Assembly (NCBI RefSeq): GCF_021021555.1
Contig: NZ_JAINWA010000001.1
Span: forward strand, 1,240,001-1,304,000
Length of the DNA stretch: 64,000 nucleotides
From: Teretinema zuelzerae
GTDB taxonomy: Bacteria > Spirochaetota > Spirochaetia > Treponematales > Treponemataceae
Direction: 5' to 3'
Shown: positions 1,046 to 58,267 of the stretch, one piece after another
Numbering within the stretch: the stretch's first letter is position 1
Layout of the letters: each line of letters starts with the position of its first letter
The notes under the pieces: generated by a model
The model's input: the letters and a program-made list of their open reading frames with translations, nothing else
Told to the model about the DNA's origin: nothing
Databases searched by the model: none
Position numbers and translations under genes: made by a program

Positions 1046-1126
1046 CTCTTATCAAGAGCGGCAGAGGGACTGGCCCTATGAAGCCCGGCAACCGATTTTC
1101 ACGGTGCCAATTCCAGAAGATGAGAG
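1046..1126 (+). promoter_or_regulatory. SAM-I (S-box) riboswitch
   Basis: The leader carries the conserved S-box core. P1 is formed by CTCTTATC (1046-1053) with GATGAGAG (1119-1126), with one G-U pair. It is followed by CAAGAG, then AGAGGGACTGGCCC, then a P3 containing CCCGGCAACC, and GGTGCCAATTCC. An intrinsic terminator follows at 1148-1174. In this class, S-adenosylmethionine binding stabilises the aptamer and favours termination, so metNIQ should be off when SAM is plentiful. The downstream methionine transporter fits this exactly. Confidence 0.95.
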
Positions 1127-48423: not shown

Positions 48424-50607
48424 TTACGGCTCTGCCCTGCGGACGATGAATTCCCGCTGAGGCTCCTGCTCGTACAGCTCGGTCCGTCTTTTTTCAGCCT
48501 CGTACAGAAGCTCCTGCACCCGGATGCGCTGCTCTCCCGCTTCGGGACTTCGGCGAAGCCAGGATCCGTTGGGCATAAGAAAGTGCGATTTCACGTTGTC
48601 CGCGAAGTACAGCTGGAGAACGTCCTTGATCGTCGCCTTGACCCCTTCCGCAAGAATGGGGAAGAGCAATTCGACCCGGCGGTCCAGATTGCGGGGCATC
48701 CAGTCCGCGCTCGACAGATATAATTCGTCGGCTCCTCCGTTCGCAAACCAGAAAATTCTCGAATGCTCCAGAAAACGGTCGATGACGCTCACCACCGTGA
48801 TGTTTTCGCTTTGCTTTGGAACTCCCGGAACGAGCATGCACACTCCGCGAATATTGAGCTGAATGCGGACGCCCGCCCGGCTCGCCCGGTACAGCGCGTC
48901 GATGATTTCGGGATCGGCGAGGCTGTTCATCTTCGCGATGATCAAGCCCGGCCGCTCCGGAGCGGACCTGCCGATTTCGCGGTCGATCAGGGAAATAAGC
49001 CGGCTCTTCATATCGATCGGAGCCATGACCAGGCGCTTGGTGGACAGAATGGCTGAACAGCCTGAAATCATGTTGAAAAAGAGGGTCGCGTCGTTGGCGA
49101 TTTCGTCGTTGGTCGTGAAAATCGACATGTCGACGTACAGACGGGCGGTCCTGTCGTTGTAGTTTCCGGTGGAAAGATGGACGTACCGCTTGATGCCTTC
49201 GATCTCGCGGCGTATCACCAGCAATATTTTCGCGTGAACCTTTAGCCGGGCGATGCCGTAGACGACGATGACGCCGGCTTTTTCAAGGCGGCCGGCCCAG
49301 GAGATGTTGCGTTCTTCGTCGAACCGCGCCTTGATCTCCACGAAGACCGTCACATGCTTGCCCGCTCGGGCGGCGCGCTCCAGAGCCCGCACTACGGGAG
49401 AATTGCCGCTCGTCCTGTACAGAGTCATCTTGATCGCGAGAACAGCGGGATCGTCGGCCGCATCGTTTATCATGCGCATAACCGGATCCCAGGATTGATA
49501 GGGCACATGGAGAAGGATGTCGCGCCGCTTCATCTCGTCCCACAGGGGTTCGTCGCGGGGCAGATCGACCGGCCACAAATGCTTCCAGGCGGGATTCCGC
49601 AAATGATCGAAGCCTTCCGCGTTCGCCAGCGCGGCGAGAGTCGGCAGATCGATCGGCCCGTTTACCGCGTAAATCTCGATATCCTGCAGCTTCATTCCGG
49701 ATTTCAGATAATCGGAGATGATAGGGCTCGTGCCGGTGCAGATCATGCGTACCGGAATGGAGGACATGCGCGATACAAGCACTTCTTCGATCGCGGCGAT
49801 GAAATCGGCGTCCCGGTCTTCGTCCACCGCGAAATCGGCGTCCCGGGTAATCTTGAACAAAAGGCTTTCTTCGACGGAAAAACCGGGAAACAACCGCTGA
49901 CCGAAGGTTTGCACGACATCGTCCAACAGCGCGAACTGCTTAACGCCCCGCTCCTCCGGCAGCCAGACGACGCGAGGGATGCTCGCGGGTATTTGCACGA
50001 CGGCAATAATGGGCTTTGACGGTTTTTGACTCGTGTCGCCCTCGTTTTCCGAAAGAATGCCGCTTTTCTCCAGAAAGGCCGTAAGAGGCCCGTCGGGAAG
50101 CGCAAGATTGTTTTTCAAGCAAAAAGCCGCGTGAAGGCGCAGATTGCCCAGGCTGCGGGCGAGCCCTTCCGCGTCCGTCTTCAACGGCGTAAGCAGGGGA
50201 AACACCTCGTTCATGAAAAAAGCGTCCAGAAAACGGTTTTGATTCGGGGTGTATTCCGCCGAAGGAACGTACTTCAAGCCTTCCGAGGCGAGACCGGGAA
50301 GAAGCTCGTTCATCAAGCACTGATACTGCGACTGAACCAGCTCATGCACCCGGGATGAAATGGCCGCGAGCTGCTGCGAAGCGGTAAGGCCGGCGGCATC
50401 CCTCCAATCGGGATTCGATTGATGCTGAGCCTTGAGGCTTGCCACGCGGACCATGAAGAACTCGTCGAAGTTGGACGATACGATCGTCAGGAAGCGCAGC
50501 CTCTCCAGCAGGGGAACATCGGGAGAACGCGCTTCGGTCAACACTCGCGCGTTGAACTCTATCCAGGACAATTCTCTGCTGAAATAGCGGTTCGATTCGG
50601 TATTCAT
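48424..50607 (-). CDS. ppk1: Polyphosphate kinase
   Basis: The 727-residue PPK1 reversibly transfers the gamma-phosphate of ATP to long-chain polyphosphate. It shows FSRELSWIEFNARVL at the N-terminus, FDEFFMVRVASL, the catalytic His in RLKVHAKILLV, a second in the PPK-C region, and HLSTGNYNDRTARLY. It follows ppx by ten bases on the same strand. The pair makes and breaks polyphosphate. Confidence 0.95.
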   Translation of the reverse strand: MNTESNRYFSRELSWIEFNARVLTEARSPDVPLLERLRFLTIVSSNFDEFFMVRVASLKAQHQSNPDWRDAAGLTASQQLAAISSRVHELVQSQYQCLMNELLPGLASEGLKYVPSAEYTPNQNRFLDAFFMNEVFPLLTPLKTDAEGLARSLGNLRLHAAFCLKNNLALPDGPLTAFLEKSGILSENEGDTSQKPSKPIIAVVQIPASIPRVVWLPEERGVKQFALLDDVVQTFGQRLFPGFSVEESLLFKITRDADFAVDEDRDADFIAAIEEVLVSRMSSIPVRMICTGTSPIISDYLKSGMKLQDIEIYAVNGPIDLPTLAALANAEGFDHLRNPAWKHLWPVDLPRDEPLWDEMKRRDILLHVPYQSWDPVMRMINDAADDPAVLAIKMTLYRTSGNSPVVRALERAARAGKHVTVFVEIKARFDEERNISWAGRLEKAGVIVVYGIARLKVHAKILLVIRREIEGIKRYVHLSTGNYNDRTARLYVDMSIFTTNDEIANDATLFFNMISGCSAILSTKRLVMAPIDMKSRLISLIDREIGRSAPERPGLIIAKMNSLADPEIIDALYRASRAGVRIQLNIRGVCMLVPGVPKQSENITVVSVIDRFLEHSRIFWFANGGADELYLSSADWMPRNLDRRVELLFPILAEGVKATIKDVLQLYFADNVKSHFLMPNGSWLRRSPEAGEQRIRVQELLYEAEKRRTELYEQEPQREFIVRRAEP

Positions 50608-50617
50608 GTCGGTTCCT

Positions 50618-52222
50618 TCAATTTAATACAAGACGATAGCCGAAGATCTCTTCGAAAAGATCGGCCTTTTCCTCAAGCGCCATCCGTTCCAGGGTAACGT
50701 CGTGAGTCCCCCGGGCGCGCAGATACAGCGTATCCTTTGAGAGCTCGATGTCGAAATCTTCGATATGCTGCGAATGCCCGCGATCGAGCGCGTCCGCGAT
50801 GCGCAGCAGAGCGGACAGCTTCAACACCATGGTGCGGTCCTGGCGGGCGAGAGTCGCGTAGGCATGATGCCCCGGATTCGGCTTTTCGGCCCGATGATAG
50901 CGCACGACATTGGACAGAATGTTCATGTCGTCCTTGTTAAGCCCGAAAATATCCGAGTGGGCGATGATGTACTGGCTGTGCAGATGATGGTCGGCCGGAC
51001 GGATGAAGCTGCCGACGTCGTGAAGGATCGCCGCGACCTCGAGAATGAGCCGGGCATGGCGGTCAAGGCCCAGTTCGGCCTCCAGGCAATTATATAAACC
51101 GAGGGCGATGCGGGTGACGTAGCGAGAATGGTCCTCGTCCACATGGTAGCGTTTGCCGAGATTTGCCGCGGAAGCGACGACCTGCGTATAAAATTCCTCG
51201 TTGACCAATGGATCCGGTCCCGACACGCAGGAAATAATGACGCCCTCGCGCAGGGTTAAAAACGGCACCAGAACGGTTTCAGCCTCGGTCATTTCCAGAA
51301 AATACTGGTAGGCAAGAAGGCCGGGAGTGAGGGATTCCGCTTCTCCGTAGCTGATGCGGAAGTTCCGCACGCATTCTTCCGGGGTGTACGAGGTTACCCG
51401 CTGAACGAAGGAAATGAATTCATGCCGGGGGATGACGGAAAGAAGATCGGTTACCGGAGTTCCGATGCTGCGCGCCGCGAGGCGGGCGTCGCTGCTGATG
51501 GCTATCAACTGATGGACGCGGTCGAGGCGGAGTTCCTTGTTCAGCGTTTCTCCGGTGGTCCTGATGTACTCGGCGAGAAAGCGGCGCATGTCCTTCGCGG
51601 AGCCCATCATCGCCTTGACCTGCTGCTCGATGATGACGGTGCCCATGCGGAAACTGTGGGCCGCGACCATCTTGCCCTTCTGCATCAGCATGATTTCGGT
51701 AGAGCCGCCGCCTACGTCCATGATGATCGAATTTATTTTTCCGAGCGCTCCCGGAGCTCCCCTGAGGGCCCTATTGACGACCAGATACATGAGGCGGTTT
51801 TCTTCGATTCCGTCTATAACCCGGACGCGAAAGCCCGTTTTAACGGAGAGCCGGTCCAGAATTGAATCCCGGTTTTTCGCTTCGCGGATGGCGCTGGTCG
51901 CGACGACGGTGACGTGAGCGTCCTCGACCGCCCAACTGCGCAAGATTTCGCGGTATCGGTTAAGAATAGCCAAACACTGCAGAAGGGAGTCGCGGGAAAT
52001 GCTCCCGATGGTGAACACGTCCCGGCCGAGAGCAAGAGCGCGCTCGGCGCGGTCGATCACGGCCCAGGAACCGTCGGCGGAAATTTCGGCTATAAGCAGC
52101 CGCAAACCCGTCGCGCCGATCTCGATTACCGCCTCGAGGCGGGGCCCGGCGGCCGCGCCCGCAAGCGGATCGCAGCAGGAACGGACGGGCTTTTGTATGT
52201 CAGAGGCGTCTTTCGTACGCAT
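50618..52222 (-). CDS. ppx: Exopolyphosphatase (Ppx/GppA) with HD domain
   Basis: A 534-residue Ppx/GppA phosphatase. The ASKHA core has IEIGATGLRLLIAEI, VVATSAIREAKN, and IMDVGGGSTEIMLM. The C-terminal half is an HD-type domain (EVAAILHDVGSFIRPADHHLHSQ), common in long forms. It degrades polyphosphate (or pppGpp in relatives). It lies between an alpha/alpha-barrel glycosidase and ppk1 on one strand. Confidence 0.92.
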   Translation of the reverse strand: MRTKDASDIQKPVRSCCDPLAGAAAGPRLEAVIEIGATGLRLLIAEISADGSWAVIDRAERALALGRDVFTIGSISRDSLLQCLAILNRYREILRSWAVEDAHVTVVATSAIREAKNRDSILDRLSVKTGFRVRVIDGIEENRLMYLVVNRALRGAPGALGKINSIIMDVGGGSTEIMLMQKGKMVAAHSFRMGTVIIEQQVKAMMGSAKDMRRFLAEYIRTTGETLNKELRLDRVHQLIAISSDARLAARSIGTPVTDLLSVIPRHEFISFVQRVTSYTPEECVRNFRISYGEAESLTPGLLAYQYFLEMTEAETVLVPFLTLREGVIISCVSGPDPLVNEEFYTQVVASAANLGKRYHVDEDHSRYVTRIALGLYNCLEAELGLDRHARLILEVAAILHDVGSFIRPADHHLHSQYIIAHSDIFGLNKDDMNILSNVVRYHRAEKPNPGHHAYATLARQDRTMVLKLSALLRIADALDRGHSQHIEDFDIELSKDTLYLRARGTHDVTLERMALEEKADLFEEIFGYRLVLN

Positions 52223-52284
52223 ATTGGGAGGTTCCTTTCAAAGAGAGTATCCCCTGCCCGTATGAGTTCTTCATGAGAAAATCG

Positions 52285-53715
52285 TCAGAGCTTGTCGATC
52301 AGCATCGAACATTTTCCGGACGGTATCGGCAGGGTTTTCTTTTTCTGTCCGAGTATGTTGATGGTGAAATAGTAAAGCTTTTCGCTCTCCATGTGAATCT
52401 CCCACCCGCGCTGGCTTTTGTTCGACAGAATCGTGATCAGGTTGCGCTTGAGGCTGAGATTCTCTATCCCCATCACTTCAAGATTGGGAATGATCCAGTC
52501 GACGGTTTTTCTGGGCAGGGAAATAGACAAGCCGATGATGTTTTCTATCATGAGGGCGATAGTCGACAGTCCCGCGTAGGGCAGATACTGCTTGCGTGGA
52601 AAGCCCTCTTTTCCCGGCCACTGGGCAGGGCCTTCCTTCTGGGGCATGTACGCCTCCCAGAGAAAACCCTTATTGTGCTCTCCGTTGGGAGACAGCGCGT
52701 CCAGAACATAATAGAGATGGCGGATAGCGCATTCGCGTGCGAGATCCCACCGCTGATATTTTTCCAAACCCTTTACGACCATGAAGGTGAAAGGCGCGAA
52801 AACGCTTCCGCGATAGCCCATGCCGCGTTCATCGTATTCCGGATCGTCGGCCGAAAGCGACGGAAACGGATGATCCACCCCGAAGGTATGGGGGTTGAGC
52901 AAATGGGAAATGAGCTTGTCTGCCTTGTCCTCGTTCGGAATTTCGGCAAGAAGCGGCCAAAAGCCCGCGATCGTTTTCTGGGGCTGGCGGACGAGGTCCG
53001 AATCGACATCGTGGTAGAAGCCGGTTTCAGGATCCCACATGTGGGAGTTGATTCGGGTCTTCAGCGAGAAATACATTCTCTTGTACTGAAAGCTCAGTTC
53101 CTTGTCGTTGAGAATATCTCCCAGGGCGGACATATACAGCGCGTTGATCGCGAGTGCGGTGTTGAAATCGACGAGAAAGTCGGCCTTCTTCCGGGGGGAA
53201 TTGATCATGGTGGTAGCCGCGAGCGGCACCTGGTACAAGCCGCATTCCTTCTTGAAGGTCGCGTCGATCCAGGACATATACTTCTGAAGCACCGGCATGA
53301 TGTCCTTGATGCGCTTCTTGTTCGCGGACTTGTGGAACAGATTGAATTCGGCCCAGGCGAACAGCGGCATGCCGATGCCCTCGGGATTATCCTTTGAAAG
53401 AACGGGATCGCCGGTCAGCAGGTTATATTTCCAGCGGATGGCTCCGTTCTCTTCCTGATGCTCGTAGAAAAAATCAAGGCTTTGGTTGGCGTGATAGTTT
53501 CGGTTCGAATACACGAAGAAAAATGATGAGAAAATGGTCTCGAACTGGTTGAGTATTGATTCTTCCCCTTCCGGGTAGATAAAATAACCCTCGGGAGATA
53601 AGCCATTAACATCGGGTGTTACCCAATAGTCCTGCACCCAGGCCCAGCTCCGGTCATAAATATCTACAAAGTCCTGATCGTAGAAGTGGACTTTGGGGAA
53701 ATCTCGCTTGTTCAC
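52285..53715 (-). CDS. (Alpha/alpha)6-barrel glycosidase, GH63/trehalase-like
   Basis: A 476-residue cytoplasmic protein with the pattern of the GH63/GH37 superfamily, which contains trehalases, mannosidases and glucosyl/mannosylglycerate hydrolases. Relevant stretches are EESILNQFETIFSSFF, IRWKYNLLTGDPVLSKDNPEG, FNTALAINALYMSALGDI, MWDPETGFYHDVD and MGYRGSVFAPF. The substrate cannot be told. The start GTG 53715 has GGAAGGAGC. It precedes ppx by 62 bases and may be in the same operon. It is divergent from the GatB fusion. Confidence 0.6.
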   Translation of the reverse strand: MNKRDFPKVHFYDQDFVDIYDRSWAWVQDYWVTPDVNGLSPEGYFIYPEGEESILNQFETIFSSFFFVYSNRNYHANQSLDFFYEHQEENGAIRWKYNLLTGDPVLSKDNPEGIGMPLFAWAEFNLFHKSANKKRIKDIMPVLQKYMSWIDATFKKECGLYQVPLAATTMINSPRKKADFLVDFNTALAINALYMSALGDILNDKELSFQYKRMYFSLKTRINSHMWDPETGFYHDVDSDLVRQPQKTIAGFWPLLAEIPNEDKADKLISHLLNPHTFGVDHPFPSLSADDPEYDERGMGYRGSVFAPFTFMVVKGLEKYQRWDLARECAIRHLYYVLDALSPNGEHNKGFLWEAYMPQKEGPAQWPGKEGFPRKQYLPYAGLSTIALMIENIIGLSISLPRKTVDWIIPNLEVMGIENLSLKRNLITILSNKSQRGWEIHMESEKLYYFTINILGQKKKTLPIPSGKCSMLIDKL

Positions 53716-53827: not shown

Positions 53828-56221
53828 ATGTACCAGTCAAAAGTTTTTCTGGAAGTCAGGATACTGCTTTCCACCACGGAAAAGGCTTTCTGCTCATGCC
53901 ATATCGGCAATTCCGCCGGGAGCTGCCCTGTTTGCCGACGGGAAGAAGGCGCGCTGCCGGCGGTGAATTCCCAGACTGCGCGGCGAGCGTATCTCCTTGC
54001 CCACGCCCTTGATTGCGTACTTGCCGACAAAGCGGACTACGAGCGCCCCAAGGGGAGCCCGTCGCTCCCGCCGGAATACAGCCTCTCCGGCGCGTCTCTG
54101 AAAATCGGCTCGGACGGCGCGATGGACATCGAGTTTCACCGGAGAAAAAAGCGCATCAGCATCCGGGAGGTAAGAATCGAAGAGGACGCCGGCAGGCTCA
54201 CGCACCAGAACGGGGAAACCCGCATGGATTATTCCCAGGCCGGAGCTCCGAGCATCCGCATACGCACCGGAACGGAGTTCGAACTGGGAGAAGAGACCGA
54301 AATATTCCTCACCGAACTTCGCAGACGGATTCAATACATGGGAATCCTGAAAGGCGTTCCGCCTGAAAGCGTCATCAGATGCAACGCCTACGTTTCCCTC
54401 GCCAGATATCCGAATAATCCCGACTATACCGTTAAACTCAGGAATCTCAACTCCTTCAACTTCGCCCGGAAGGCAATAAACGCCGAGCTGCACCGCCAGG
54501 AAGAGATCCTGATCTCCGGCGGAACGGTCGAGTCCGAAAGCCGCATCTGGAACGAGAGGCAGGACAGGACCGAATTCCATCAGAGCCGCGAATCCGTTTC
54601 CGCCGTCTCTACAGTGCCGCTCCAGGGAAAGCCGTCCTTCGCTTGCCCGCCCGCCCTTCTCGCCGAGCTTCGCGCGTCGGCCATCGAACATCCCTCTGAA
54701 CGGCAGAATCGCTTGATCGAAGCATGGGGAATCGCGAGAACGCGAGCAGAGTTCATCTGCGACGAAAAGTCCCGGGCCGATTTCTACGAGGAATCGATCA
54801 AGGCCGGAGCCGATCCGATGGACGCGGCGCACTGGCTGATGTCCGACATCACGGGACTGCTGCGCAAGACTGGCAAAAAAATACAGGACTCGCCGCTTTC
54901 GCCGCGCAGATTCGCGTCGATCCTCGCGCTCTACCGCGAACGCACCATCAACAGCAGAATGGCGAAACAGATCCTCCTTGCCGTCCTTGAAACCGATAAG
55001 GACCCCGCGATTCTCATGCAGGAGCACGACTGGACTCAAATCTCCGACACGACGCAGCTAAGGCTCATCGTGCAGAAAACCATTTCGGACAACCCGCTGG
55101 AAGCGAACAGGCTCCGGGACGGCGACATGGCTCCGCTCGAGTTCCTTACCGGACTGATCATGAAAAAAACCCGAGGTCTGGCGGAGCCGGGCATCGTCAA
55201 GACGCTTCTCAAGGAAGAACTCCGAATCAGCCTGGTGTACATTCTAGCGATGGGGGGAACGATCACCGGAAGCGTCGATAACGGAGAGATCATCGGAGGA
55301 GACGCGAAAATACTCCGGACGATGATCGAGCCGGAACTCACGGCAGGACACATCAGCATCGAACCGGTCGCCCCGGACCGCCTTCTCAGCGAAGAAATAC
55401 AACCGATGGATTGGGCCAGGCTCGTCCACGCGATATCCCAGAAAATCGCCTCCGGAACGGCGAACGGCATAGTGGTCACCCACGGAACCGACACCCTCGC
55501 CTACACCGCGCCCCTTATATACTGGCTTTTCGCCGATTCTCCCGTTCCCATCGTCTTTACCACGTCGAATACGCCTCCGGCCGTTCTCGAACCGGGAGCG
55601 ACCCCCGACGAGGCCAGGCTGAATCTGAACAAGGCGATACGGCTCGCACGAGAAAAAGAGCGCGGAATCTACGTCGTTTTCGGCGACAGGGTGCTCTCTC
55701 CCATCAATCTGAAATTCCTTCGGCCGGCCCTCTACGGCTTTACGAACTGGAATTCGCAGGACCAGCACCGGGGCGCCGGATTCCTCAACGGCCTGGGCGA
55801 AACAGATCCGTACGTCATGGGAAGGCTTCTTGCGGAAGCGGCCGACAGGCTTCATCTAACCAGAATATACCCGGGTTTGCGCGCGGACAGGCTGCTCGCG
55901 CTCACCGAAACCGGAGTGACGCACTTTTTCCTGGAATTGTACGAAAAGGGAACGGGCAACATGAAGGACAGCGACTATTCCCTGAAGCAGCTTCTGATCC
56001 AGGGAAGACGGCGGGGATGCAGATTCTACTGCACCTCGCAGCAGGAAGGGGTCGTCGATTTTTCGGGGTATTCAACATCGAGGCGGATGTGGCGGGAGGG
56101 CGCGATTCCGATGGGTTCGCTCACCACTGAAACCGCGATGGCGCTCTATTTCGCGGCGAGCCTCGTATGCGACTCGCTCGAGGAAATCGACGAGCTGATG
56201 GAAGCCGCCGGCCAGAACTGA
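53828..56221 (+). CDS. Fusion of degenerate GatB/GatE-like domain to asparaginase/GatD-like domain
   Basis: A 797-residue single chain. Residues 1-465 match GatB: zinc ligands Cys22/24/33/36 (FCSC...CPVC), EEDAGRL (118-124), NLNSFNFARKAI (207-218), and a complete YqeY tail to ~465. Residues 466-797 are an asparaginase: AMGGTI with Thr478, THGTDTLAYT with Thr554/Asp555, then PVPIVFT. Archaeal GatDE is the same pair as two proteins. Lost GatB features are GLEVH (here FLEVR), the tyrosine-rich FxRKNYFYPD motif and DYRYFPDPD. Ammonia-dependent tRNA amidation or a new asparaginase role is open. GGGGAG precedes the ATG. Confidence 0.88.
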   Translation: MYQSKVFLEVRILLSTTEKAFCSCHIGNSAGSCPVCRREEGALPAVNSQTARRAYLLAHALDCVLADKADYERPKGSPSLPPEYSLSGASLKIGSDGAMDIEFHRRKKRISIREVRIEEDAGRLTHQNGETRMDYSQAGAPSIRIRTGTEFELGEETEIFLTELRRRIQYMGILKGVPPESVIRCNAYVSLARYPNNPDYTVKLRNLNSFNFARKAINAELHRQEEILISGGTVESESRIWNERQDRTEFHQSRESVSAVSTVPLQGKPSFACPPALLAELRASAIEHPSERQNRLIEAWGIARTRAEFICDEKSRADFYEESIKAGADPMDAAHWLMSDITGLLRKTGKKIQDSPLSPRRFASILALYRERTINSRMAKQILLAVLETDKDPAILMQEHDWTQISDTTQLRLIVQKTISDNPLEANRLRDGDMAPLEFLTGLIMKKTRGLAEPGIVKTLLKEELRISLVYILAMGGTITGSVDNGEIIGGDAKILRTMIEPELTAGHISIEPVAPDRLLSEEIQPMDWARLVHAISQKIASGTANGIVVTHGTDTLAYTAPLIYWLFADSPVPIVFTTSNTPPAVLEPGATPDEARLNLNKAIRLAREKERGIYVVFGDRVLSPINLKFLRPALYGFTNWNSQDQHRGAGFLNGLGETDPYVMGRLLAEAADRLHLTRIYPGLRADRLLALTETGVTHFFLELYEKGTGNMKDSDYSLKQLLIQGRRRGCRFYCTSQQEGVVDFSGYSTSRRMWREGAIPMGSLTTETAMALYFAASLVCDSLEEIDELMEAAGQN

Positions 56222-56353: not shown

Positions 56354-58267
56354 CTACTGGGCGGGAGCGGCAGGAAGGGCTTCAACCTCGGGAATCGGCA
56401 CCGGCGACGGGTTTTCAGGGGAAGCGCTTTCAACGGGAGCTTCCTTGAGAACGGCGCCCGGCCATATCACGACTTCTTCAATCTCGGCCTTATGCCGCAT
56501 TTTCAGATACAGGGTGCTCGTCTCTTCGTTATAGCGGTAGCCCGAGGAATTATAGCTTTCGAAGCGGGGATCCGTGCGGAAGTCCATTCCGTAAATCTGG
56601 ATGCGGTTGAAGGGCTTCACGCCGCGGACGACCATGTAATGCGTATCGCCCTGAGGAAAGCGAACCGTGAACGAGATAGATCCGTCGGTTCGGGTTTCAG
56701 CCTTGACCGACTGGGCGCTCGTCCACGCCCAGACTCCCGGGCCGAGCGACGATGACAGGGACAGCGCGTGCGGATACCATGAGTTGCCGCTCATAACCGC
56801 CGGATACACTTCTGCCGGGTCTAAAAGCTGCTCAGCCTTCGCGACGATGCCGGACTTCTCTCCGTTTCCCTCTCCCGCTACGAGGGCGAATTTTGCCGGC
56901 AATACCGCTCTGTCCCCGCCGAAGGCGAGAAGAGAGGTCGCCAGCAGACGCCCGGCCGAAGCCCAGGCGGAGCGCGATGAAAGCGAGGCGCCGTAGCGGA
57001 TCAGGATGTTGGCGGTCTGAATGCTCAGGAGCGTATCGATCTCCGTTCCGTCCCGGCTTACATACAGCTGATCGTCTACGCGAACCAGAGCGTCCTTGAG
57101 GATGCGTTCGCACGCGTCGACGAGGGGGCTGAACGGATTCTCGGCGGCTGAAGCAATCGCCGAGTAATCCATCGACACTTCAAGAAGTCCCGCGGCCTGG
57201 CGGGGAGTCAGGCGGGATACGTCGAGCGCGACGGCCAGCCTGGACAGGTCGGTTAACAGAACGGAACTTCCGCGGTCAACGAGATAGGGCACCAGAGAAG
57301 GGAACTCGAAACAGCCGAGATCGCCTTCGGAAATCTTGCGGGATAACAGCGAACGGTCTTCGCGCTCTTTAATAATCATGCCGGCGGTCGTTTTTTCCAG
57401 ATTGTTGAAGAAGGTGTTCGTCTGCCATGTCCTCGCCCGCCCGCTTCGGTAGGATTCCGGAACGGATTCGAGCCCGGCGGCGTACATGCCGGTCCGGCCC
57501 ATTTCGGCAATATACGAAGCGACGAGGGGCTCGGTCAGCTTTCCGGCCGTTATCGAGTCCCGGAACGAGGAGAGGGAACCGGCGGCGAACCGCTCGAGGG
57601 CCTTGCGATAGGCTGCCTCGGACGCGGCCGGAATGCCGGCCAATTCCTCGATGACGAGGCCCCTCACGGGAATCCAGGTCTTATAGAGGGCAACCGGAGA
57701 AGCCCGGGTGAGATTAAGCCGGCGGATTTCCGCGCGATCGATCGCGTCGATCGGAAAGCCCGGGAAATAATACCGATGCTGGCCGCTCGCTACCAGAATC
57801 TGGGAATCGTTTTTTTCAAGCTTCGCGCTTCTGATTATCTTGTACGGCAGGGCGGCTTTCTGGTATTTTTGGGTGAGGGAAGCGGACACGCTGATTATAT
57901 CGACATCGCCCCGGGTTTCGGACGCAAACGAAAGAGAAACTGAATCGGCGAAGAATACCGTAAACGAGTCGTCGTCTCTTTTTATCGCGGTCGCTTCCAG
58001 CGAATGCTGCTTGCCTGCCGGAGTCCACACCACGAGGGGATTCTGATCGTCGAGGAAAAAATCGACGCCGTTGGCGGATACATGAAGGGGCAAAACGGGT
58101 ACAATGCTTCCGTCGCCGCCCTGAACGCCGGTGCCGGAGACGCGGAGCTTTCCGAGGGTGTAAGAAAAAGAACCGCCCGAGGTAAACTGCAGCGCGAATA
58201 TGCCGAGAATAATGCAAAGGTAGAGCGCCGTGAGACCGAAAATCCTGCGGGGAACATGCTTCATCAT
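56354..58267 (-). CDS. Large secreted or membrane-anchored protein of unknown function
   Basis: A 637-residue protein with one N-terminal membrane segment (FGLTALYLCIILGIFALQF) that anchors or exports it. The body is mixed alpha/beta without a recognised motif. The C-terminus is Pro/Ala/Glu-rich. I cannot name a family. The start lies seven bases after TACACT (TTGATT-18-TACACT), leaderless type, with two ATGs in tandem. It is divergent from the TPR lipoprotein gene. Confidence 0.7.
   Translation of the reverse strand: MMKHVPRRIFGLTALYLCIILGIFALQFTSGGSFSYTLGKLRVSGTGVQGGDGSIVPVLPLHVSANGVDFFLDDQNPLVVWTPAGKQHSLEATAIKRDDDSFTVFFADSVSLSFASETRGDVDIISVSASLTQKYQKAALPYKIIRSAKLEKNDSQILVASGQHRYYFPGFPIDAIDRAEIRRLNLTRASPVALYKTWIPVRGLVIEELAGIPAASEAAYRKALERFAAGSLSSFRDSITAGKLTEPLVASYIAEMGRTGMYAAGLESVPESYRSGRARTWQTNTFFNNLEKTTAGMIIKEREDRSLLSRKISEGDLGCFEFPSLVPYLVDRGSSVLLTDLSRLAVALDVSRLTPRQAAGLLEVSMDYSAIASAAENPFSPLVDACERILKDALVRVDDQLYVSRDGTEIDTLLSIQTANILIRYGASLSSRSAWASAGRLLATSLLAFGGDRAVLPAKFALVAGEGNGEKSGIVAKAEQLLDPAEVYPAVMSGNSWYPHALSLSSSLGPGVWAWTSAQSVKAETRTDGSISFTVRFPQGDTHYMVVRGVKPFNRIQIYGMDFRTDPRFESYNSSGYRYNEETSTLYLKMRHKAEIEEVVIWPGAVLKEAPVESASPENPSPVPIPEVEALPAAPAQ

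Follow-up and report, generated by a model that had tools for sequence, protein, structure and literature searches.

In bacterial GatCAB, ammonia is already supplied by the GatA subunit, and a further, asparaginase-like module carried on GatB therefore calls for explanation. In Deinococcus and Thermus, a second AspRS acts together with GatCAB to make asparagine on tRNA(Asn) (PMC4206432). In the structure of yeast GatFAB, the GatB residues H36, E156 and E186 are assigned to Mg2+, and E34, T189, N230 and S232 to ATP (PMC4027206). No description of a GatB-asparaginase fusion was found in the open-access literature searched.

The window, by which we mean the whole stretch of 64,000 nucleotides analysed here, encodes such a fusion. 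We consider it to be probably a non-catalytic descendant of GatB, the orphan of an operon for tRNA-dependent asparagine synthesis, which would now serve as a binding protein. Its relatives form an ordered series from an active operonic GatB to an orphan with a rebuilt pocket, and thereby illustrate how a translation enzyme becomes a conserved apparent pseudoenzyme. The module is all the more puzzling in that it is fixed in a gatCAB-aspS operon and mostly lacks its nucleophile. There is also a warning for annotation, as the labels 'GatB' or 'asparaginase' are misleading for the fusion genes of Treponema genomes.

A conserved GatB-asparaginase fusion

The gene, its domains and its conserved neighbours are as follows (window coordinates).

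53828-56221, plus strand: GatB-asparaginase fusion, 797 aa, orphan (form B, see below); ORF, Pfam, family models, homologues, predicted structure
53828-54637, plus strand: GatB cradle (catalytic) domain, about aa 1-270, Mg2+/ATP residues replaced; Pfam, alignment, roles via yeast GatB (PMC4027206)
53891-53935, plus strand: zinc-ribbon cysteines C22, C24, C33 and C36; alignment
54638-55222, plus strand: GatB helical region and YqeY tail, about aa 271-465; Pfam GatB_Yqey 318-465, structure match
55226-56218, plus strand: asparaginase/GatD-like domain, aa 467-797, with GGT (T478), LSEE (520-523), HGTDT (552-556) and TSQQ (736-739); Pfam, alignment, structure
52285-53715, minus strand: MGH1/trehalase-like glycoside hydrolase (GH), divergent neighbour and anchor of the ancestral gatCAB locus; domain search, locus comparison
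50618-52222, minus strand: Ppx/GppA-type exopolyphosphatase, conserved neighbour; locus comparison, L144 homologue named by models
48424-50607, minus strand: polyphosphate kinase 1 (PPK1), conserved neighbour; locus comparison, L144 homologue named by models

The fusion is a single intact ORF in which GatB (aa 1-465) directly abuts the asparaginase/GatD-like domain (467-797). Its likely start is the ATG at 53828, M(Y/F)QS being the usual N-terminus among fusion homologues. Pfam analysis identified GatB_N at 6-256 (5e-39), GatB_Yqey at 318-465 (3e-35) and Asparaginase (PF00710) at 470-627 (3e-26; 92.7 bits for a cut-off of 22.5), followed by a weak Asparaginase_C match under the Pfam cut-off at 677-791 (1e-4). 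An AlphaFold model based on the family alignment (mean pLDDT 86.8, pTM 0.69) matched S. aureus GatB (3ip4, Z 36.3) over residues 1-468, and over residues 468-797 adopted the fold of the type I asparaginase 5ot0 (Z 31.4). Domain matches, predicted structure and the four cysteines confirm the preliminary description of a GatB module, with zinc ribbon and YqeY tail, joined to an asparaginase/GatD-like domain.

The resemblance to archaeal GatDE did not extend to descent. The N half is a bacterial GatB, scoring 301 bits with the bacterial GatB model NF004012; the GatB equivalog TIGR00133 gave 254.9 bits, under its cut-off of 314.8 (the form-A protein L144 reached 552.9). The GatE model TIGR00134 gave 27.3 bits (cut-off 319.6) and a second GatE model 56 bits, and the AspRS-like insertion of GatE was found neither in the alignment nor in the structure model of the window protein. 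In the C half, the GatD model TIGR02153 gave 83.7 bits (cut-off 324), its match starting right after YqeY with the GatD N-terminal domain absent, and the type I asparaginase model TIGR00519 gave 90.6 bits (cut-off 260.5).

The RNA family search of the window found no RNA family adjoining the fusion gene; a SAM riboswitch (RF00162, 75.7 bits) lies at 1046-1126 (+). On the other side of the fusion, 56354-58267 (-) encodes a 637-aa protein without Pfam match, which some other members of the family also have as the downstream neighbour of their fusion. The only other PF00710 match of the window genome (G000:C3, L177 1462-1971, -) is a protein of 169 aa that covers the N-terminal part of asparaginase alone (ITGGT...HGTD).

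Among 195 genomes belonging to the same family, 63 contained homologues (E < 1e-100), mostly full-length and of the same architecture, and canonical GatBs, 22-28% identical to the fusion, appeared as separate matches; the fusion gene was not found in most Treponemataceae sampled. In a phylum sample of 393 genomes, a profile of the C half recovered the fusion from 30, spread over several families of the class; a 31st match (G231) was weak and probably unrelated. The search covered Spirochaetota, and homologues in genome contigs were those found by an alignment scan, a single-protein scan having given nothing. The same junction in many genomes excludes a chance or assembly join, and a frameshift of two genes was rejected on the same full-length homologues.

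Alignment of 84 full-length fusions with canonical GatBs revealed a clean split into two forms. Form A comprises 16 sequences (L130, L132, L134, L141, L144, L145, L147, L149, L152-L154, L157, L158, L161, L173 and L174) from other Spirochaetia. The 68 form-B sequences come from Treponemataceae and Breznakiellaceae; that of the window belongs here, as do those of Treponema porcinum (L129) and Breznakiella homolactica (L151). The 'Breznakiellaceae-type' and 'Treponemataceae-type' subgroups of form B follow trees and record titles rather than the formal taxonomy of every MAG.

A probable descent from gatCAB-aspS operon to orphan gene

Form A belongs to an operon. Directly upstream of the fusion, on the same contig, gatC and gatA are present in 14 of 15 genomes, a contig end intervening in G449, and the gene that directly follows the fusion is AspRS/AsnRS-like in all 15. 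In the L144 operon, every gene scores above the curated cut-off of its model: gatC with TIGR00135, gatA with TIGR00132, gatB with TIGR00133 (553 bits) and aspS with the non-discriminating TIGR00458 (410 bits). No GatB other than the fusion was found in 14 of the 15 genomes searched, some of which are MAGs of unknown completeness. The MAG G453 (L158/L197) combines a fused gatCAB-aspS operon with another gatCAB that is unfused, a situation which may represent an intermediate state or contamination. AsnRS exceeded its cut-off in all form-A genomes and GlnRS in 13 of 15 (not in G447 and G450). We infer from this gene content that the operon carries out tRNA-dependent asparagine synthesis on tRNA(Asn).

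Form-A loci with enough flank read as a divergent GH gene followed by gatC, gatA, the fusion and aspS. Where the flank is long enough, almost every form-B locus shows the divergent GH gene followed by the fusion alone, usually with PPK and Ppx genes before, in the orientation of GH. DnaX-RecR lies upstream of GH in some loci of both forms (A: L132, L141, L158; B: L039, L044, L051, L138), and Ppx and PPK are found just downstream in the form-A loci L144 and L147. This shared gene order identifies A and B as the same locus, from which gatC, gatA and aspS are missing in B. The block of PPK1, Ppx/GppA and MGH1-like hydrolase (48424-53715 in the window) is kept beside the fusion across the order, and even in distant families the form-A operons have this hydrolase as their divergent neighbour. 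Form B is monophyletic (100/100), and in the asparaginase-half tree it is nested in A, beside L132, L141 and L158 (99/99).

That an operonic GatB fusion became an orphan stranded at the same locus is, on this evidence, very likely. In the proposed scenario, the GatB of GatCAB would have gained its C-terminal asparaginase/GatD-like domain in ancestral Spirochaetia and worked in a gatC-gatA-gatB(fusion)-aspS(non-discriminating) operon making asparagine on tRNA(Asn), which would persist in other families. In the order containing Treponemataceae and Breznakiellaceae, gatC, gatA and aspS would have vanished from the locus, leaving the fused gatB alone. A separate gatCAB would have taken over amidation, and the Mg2+/ATP pocket of the orphan would then have been rebuilt with Arg, Asn and Lys.

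The window genome fits this description. Neither gatC nor gatA lies beside the fusion, and a search for canonical gatCAB in the same genome found a complete separate set at C1:903422-906631 (GatC by a weak model score, GatA and GatB). Since AsnRS was above its model cut-off and no GlnRS above cut-off was found in this genome, the separate gatCAB presumably makes Gln-tRNA(Gln), according to established pathway knowledge. Canonical GatB of Treponemataceae groups with the Thermotoga, Aquifex and S. aureus GatBs, apart from the fusions.

Two Breznakiellaceae genomes (G370 and G455) have both a form-B orphan and, elsewhere, a gatCAB-aspS operon whose unfused GatB has a pocket of canonical type and stops where aspS begins. 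The GatB tree weakly favors (30/92) that this GatB never had the domain; the GatA tree and the GatA+GatB tree (94/93) nest the unfused operon within the fused ones, AU tests of nesting against the alternative giving p values of 0.083 and 0.187, at which the alternative is not rejected. That duties were divided, catalysis staying with one copy and the extra domain with the other, is suggestive only. It touches on a more specific reading, in which the asparaginase-like domain of form A would, as a catalytically dead asparaginase, be a built-in asparagine sensor of the aspS-GatCAB system, and the orphan of Treponemataceae and Breznakiellaceae a freed pseudoenzyme responsive to asparagine or tRNA, its amidotransferase site erased. 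In Breznakiellaceae, where the operonic GatB lacks the domain, it looks as though one copy had taken catalysis and the other sensing. We hold this reading as a tentative one, rather doubtful as it stands.

The asparaginase-like half

All 16 form-A and all 26 Breznakiellaceae-type sequences carry alanine at the nucleophile position of the ASPARAGINASE-like half. The 42 Treponemataceae-type sequences display A in 25, S in 9, T in 6 and V in 2. Given the alanine throughout the first two groups, the ancestral state is best read as Ala and the Thr478 of the window as secondary. T554 and D555 are mostly kept in the family, with a lysine within one residue of the catalytic Lys (K629 in the window, one residue off in the alignment). 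The Thr-Thr-Asp site noted in the preliminary description is present in the window (T478, T554, D555); the claim of an intact ammonia-producing domain has to be set against a nucleophile that is ancestrally Ala in the family.

Foldseek matches of the same fold include asparaginase T-to-A mutants crystallised with Asn (PDB 5dnc and 7c8x). Since these mutants hold uncut Asn, a natural alanine would be compatible with binding without hydrolysis. The ligand of the asparaginase-like half would then be Asn, Asp or a similar compound, and contacts with tRNA or a partner may persist through the GatB tail. That the orphan acts as a ligand- or tRNA-binding regulator is on these grounds a serious possibility, if somewhat short of probable.

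The window protein may retain weak hydrolysis, with T478 present and T554, D555 and K629 mostly kept. A stronger proposal is that this half is, perhaps again, an active amidohydrolase in the genus of the window, Thr having been regained at 478 and the GatB half serving as a scaffold. It would account for the full set of T478, T554, D555 and Lys at 629, for the Thr or Ser of 15 Treponemataceae-type sequences and for the purifying selection on both halves. However, the Tyr of the first triad is missing at the aligned position (as it also is in GatD), the DS(T/S/Q) substrate motif of asparaginases is replaced by LSEE, nearer to the [FL]SE(D/N) of GatD, the lysine is displaced by one residue, and close relatives vary among T, S and A at the nucleophile. 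We regard an active amidohydrolase as unlikely. In the phylogeny, this half sits on a long stem (3.34) that ties it firmly neither to GatD nor to the type I enzymes, and it does not group with GatD.

The GatB half and its pocket

The alignment shows that all 16 form-A sequences keep every canonical pocket and catalytic residue of GatB. In the 68 form-B sequences, His is replaced by R11 (68/68), Glu by R144 (67/68), Asp by N186 (66/68) and Glu by K203 (67/68), and position 188 harbors Tyr, His or Phe where GatB has Asn. Relative to Aquifex GatB, the window thus has R11, R144, N186, Y188 and K203 for H14, E153, D195, N197 and E213. By our own mapping through motif alignment, positions 11, 144 and 188 correspond to yeast GatB H36, E186 and N230. 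The alteration of the kinase pocket suggested by the preliminary description is hence borne out; also as described, GLEVH has become FLEVR, and the motifs YFYPD and DYRYFPDPD are missing. The cradle of the window protein retains the ATP-side residues E9 and T147 and an acidic pair, E118/E119.

With the Mg2+ ligands substituted in practically all orphan homologues, the working tRNA-dependent amidotransferase envisaged earlier is unlikely for the window. On these substitutions, form-B fusions, including that of the window, have in all likelihood ceased to be kinases or amidotransferases.

The replacements are fixed, not random, and the Treponemataceae set shows R116 in 52 of 52 sequences and new invariants at H104, K108, E152 and G154. 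Such uniformity would be expected if the pocket had been converted to a new reaction or to a ligand rich in phosphate, with a metal-independent active site formed by the Arg/Lys set beside the kept acidic residues E118 and E119. Against this, the phosphate-binding YFYPD region and the zinc ribbon are variable or deleted in many homologues (the ribbon, kept in the window, is gone from most Treponemataceae homologues), and in form B conservation is lower in the cradle than in the asparaginase half. A retooled catalytic pocket is accordingly improbable in our view, and a non-catalytic binding protein is preferred.

Selection and dispensability

Form-B pairs with unsaturated dS gave Nei-Gojobori dN/dS values of about 0.03-0.2, dS being saturated for distant pairs. 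Mean pairwise identity in form A is 0.78 for the cradle and 0.50/0.59 for the N/C parts of the asparaginase half; the corresponding values are 0.67 and 0.79/0.80 for Breznakiellaceae-type and 0.49 and 0.54/0.54 for Treponemataceae-type form B. By these measures, both halves evolve under purifying selection, and the strongest constraint, which in form A lies on the GatB cradle, has moved in form B to the asparaginase-like half.

Brucepastera parasyntrophica (G018/L086) and G003 carry the fusion as a pseudogene; a frameshift or stop breaks the gene at L086 8063-10392 and at L042 8091-10461. These pseudogenes, and its absence from most Treponemataceae sampled, make the fusion dispensable for some, useful but not essential. 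They and the patchy presence (63/195 family genomes) could also indicate a decaying relic without function, but the low dN/dS across many pairs and the uniform invariant residues across the order make this very unlikely.

Comparison with known systems

Bacterial GatB (TIGR00133; Aquifex 3h0l, S. aureus 3ip4) shares with the fusion the order of cradle, helical region and YqeY as well as the fold (Z 36), and the form-A relatives also share all catalytic residues and the gatCAB operon setting. In contrast to bacterial GatB, the window protein adds a C-terminal asparaginase-like domain, has its pocket replaced and lacks gatC and gatA partners at its locus.

With archaeal GatDE (GatD 1zq1/2d6f; GatE), the fusion shares the pairing of a GatB-like and an asparaginase-like module, and with GatD the [FL]SE(D/N/E) and TSQ motifs of its C half. 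Unlike GatDE, it is one chain, has lost the kinase ligands and is of bacterial GatB ancestry, and in form A it occurs alongside GatA. A functional single-chain GatDE-like amidotransferase, as first proposed, would explain both modules in one chain and the presence of the GatD motifs instead of the type I DS motif, but it is hardly credible and was rejected on the pocket residues, with the Mg2+/ATP ligands lost, and on GatE and GatD model scores far under cut-off, the genome moreover having its own gatCAB and the C half not grouping with GatD.

Type I L-asparaginases (AnsA; PhA 1wls, TkA 5ot0) have the same fold as the C half (Z 31) and the HGTDT motif; the fusion differs from them by an ancestral Ala nucleophile, the absent first-triad Tyr, LSEE in place of the DS motif and the fused GatB.

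Finally, form-A genomes resemble Deinococcus and Thermus (PMC4206432) in having AsnRS, usually GlnRS, an ordinary-length AspRS match and a second AspRS of the non-discriminating type with gatCAB. They differ in that aspS adjoins gatCAB in an operon and GatB carries an extra domain, and the lineage of the window differs further in having lost the gatCAB-aspS operon.
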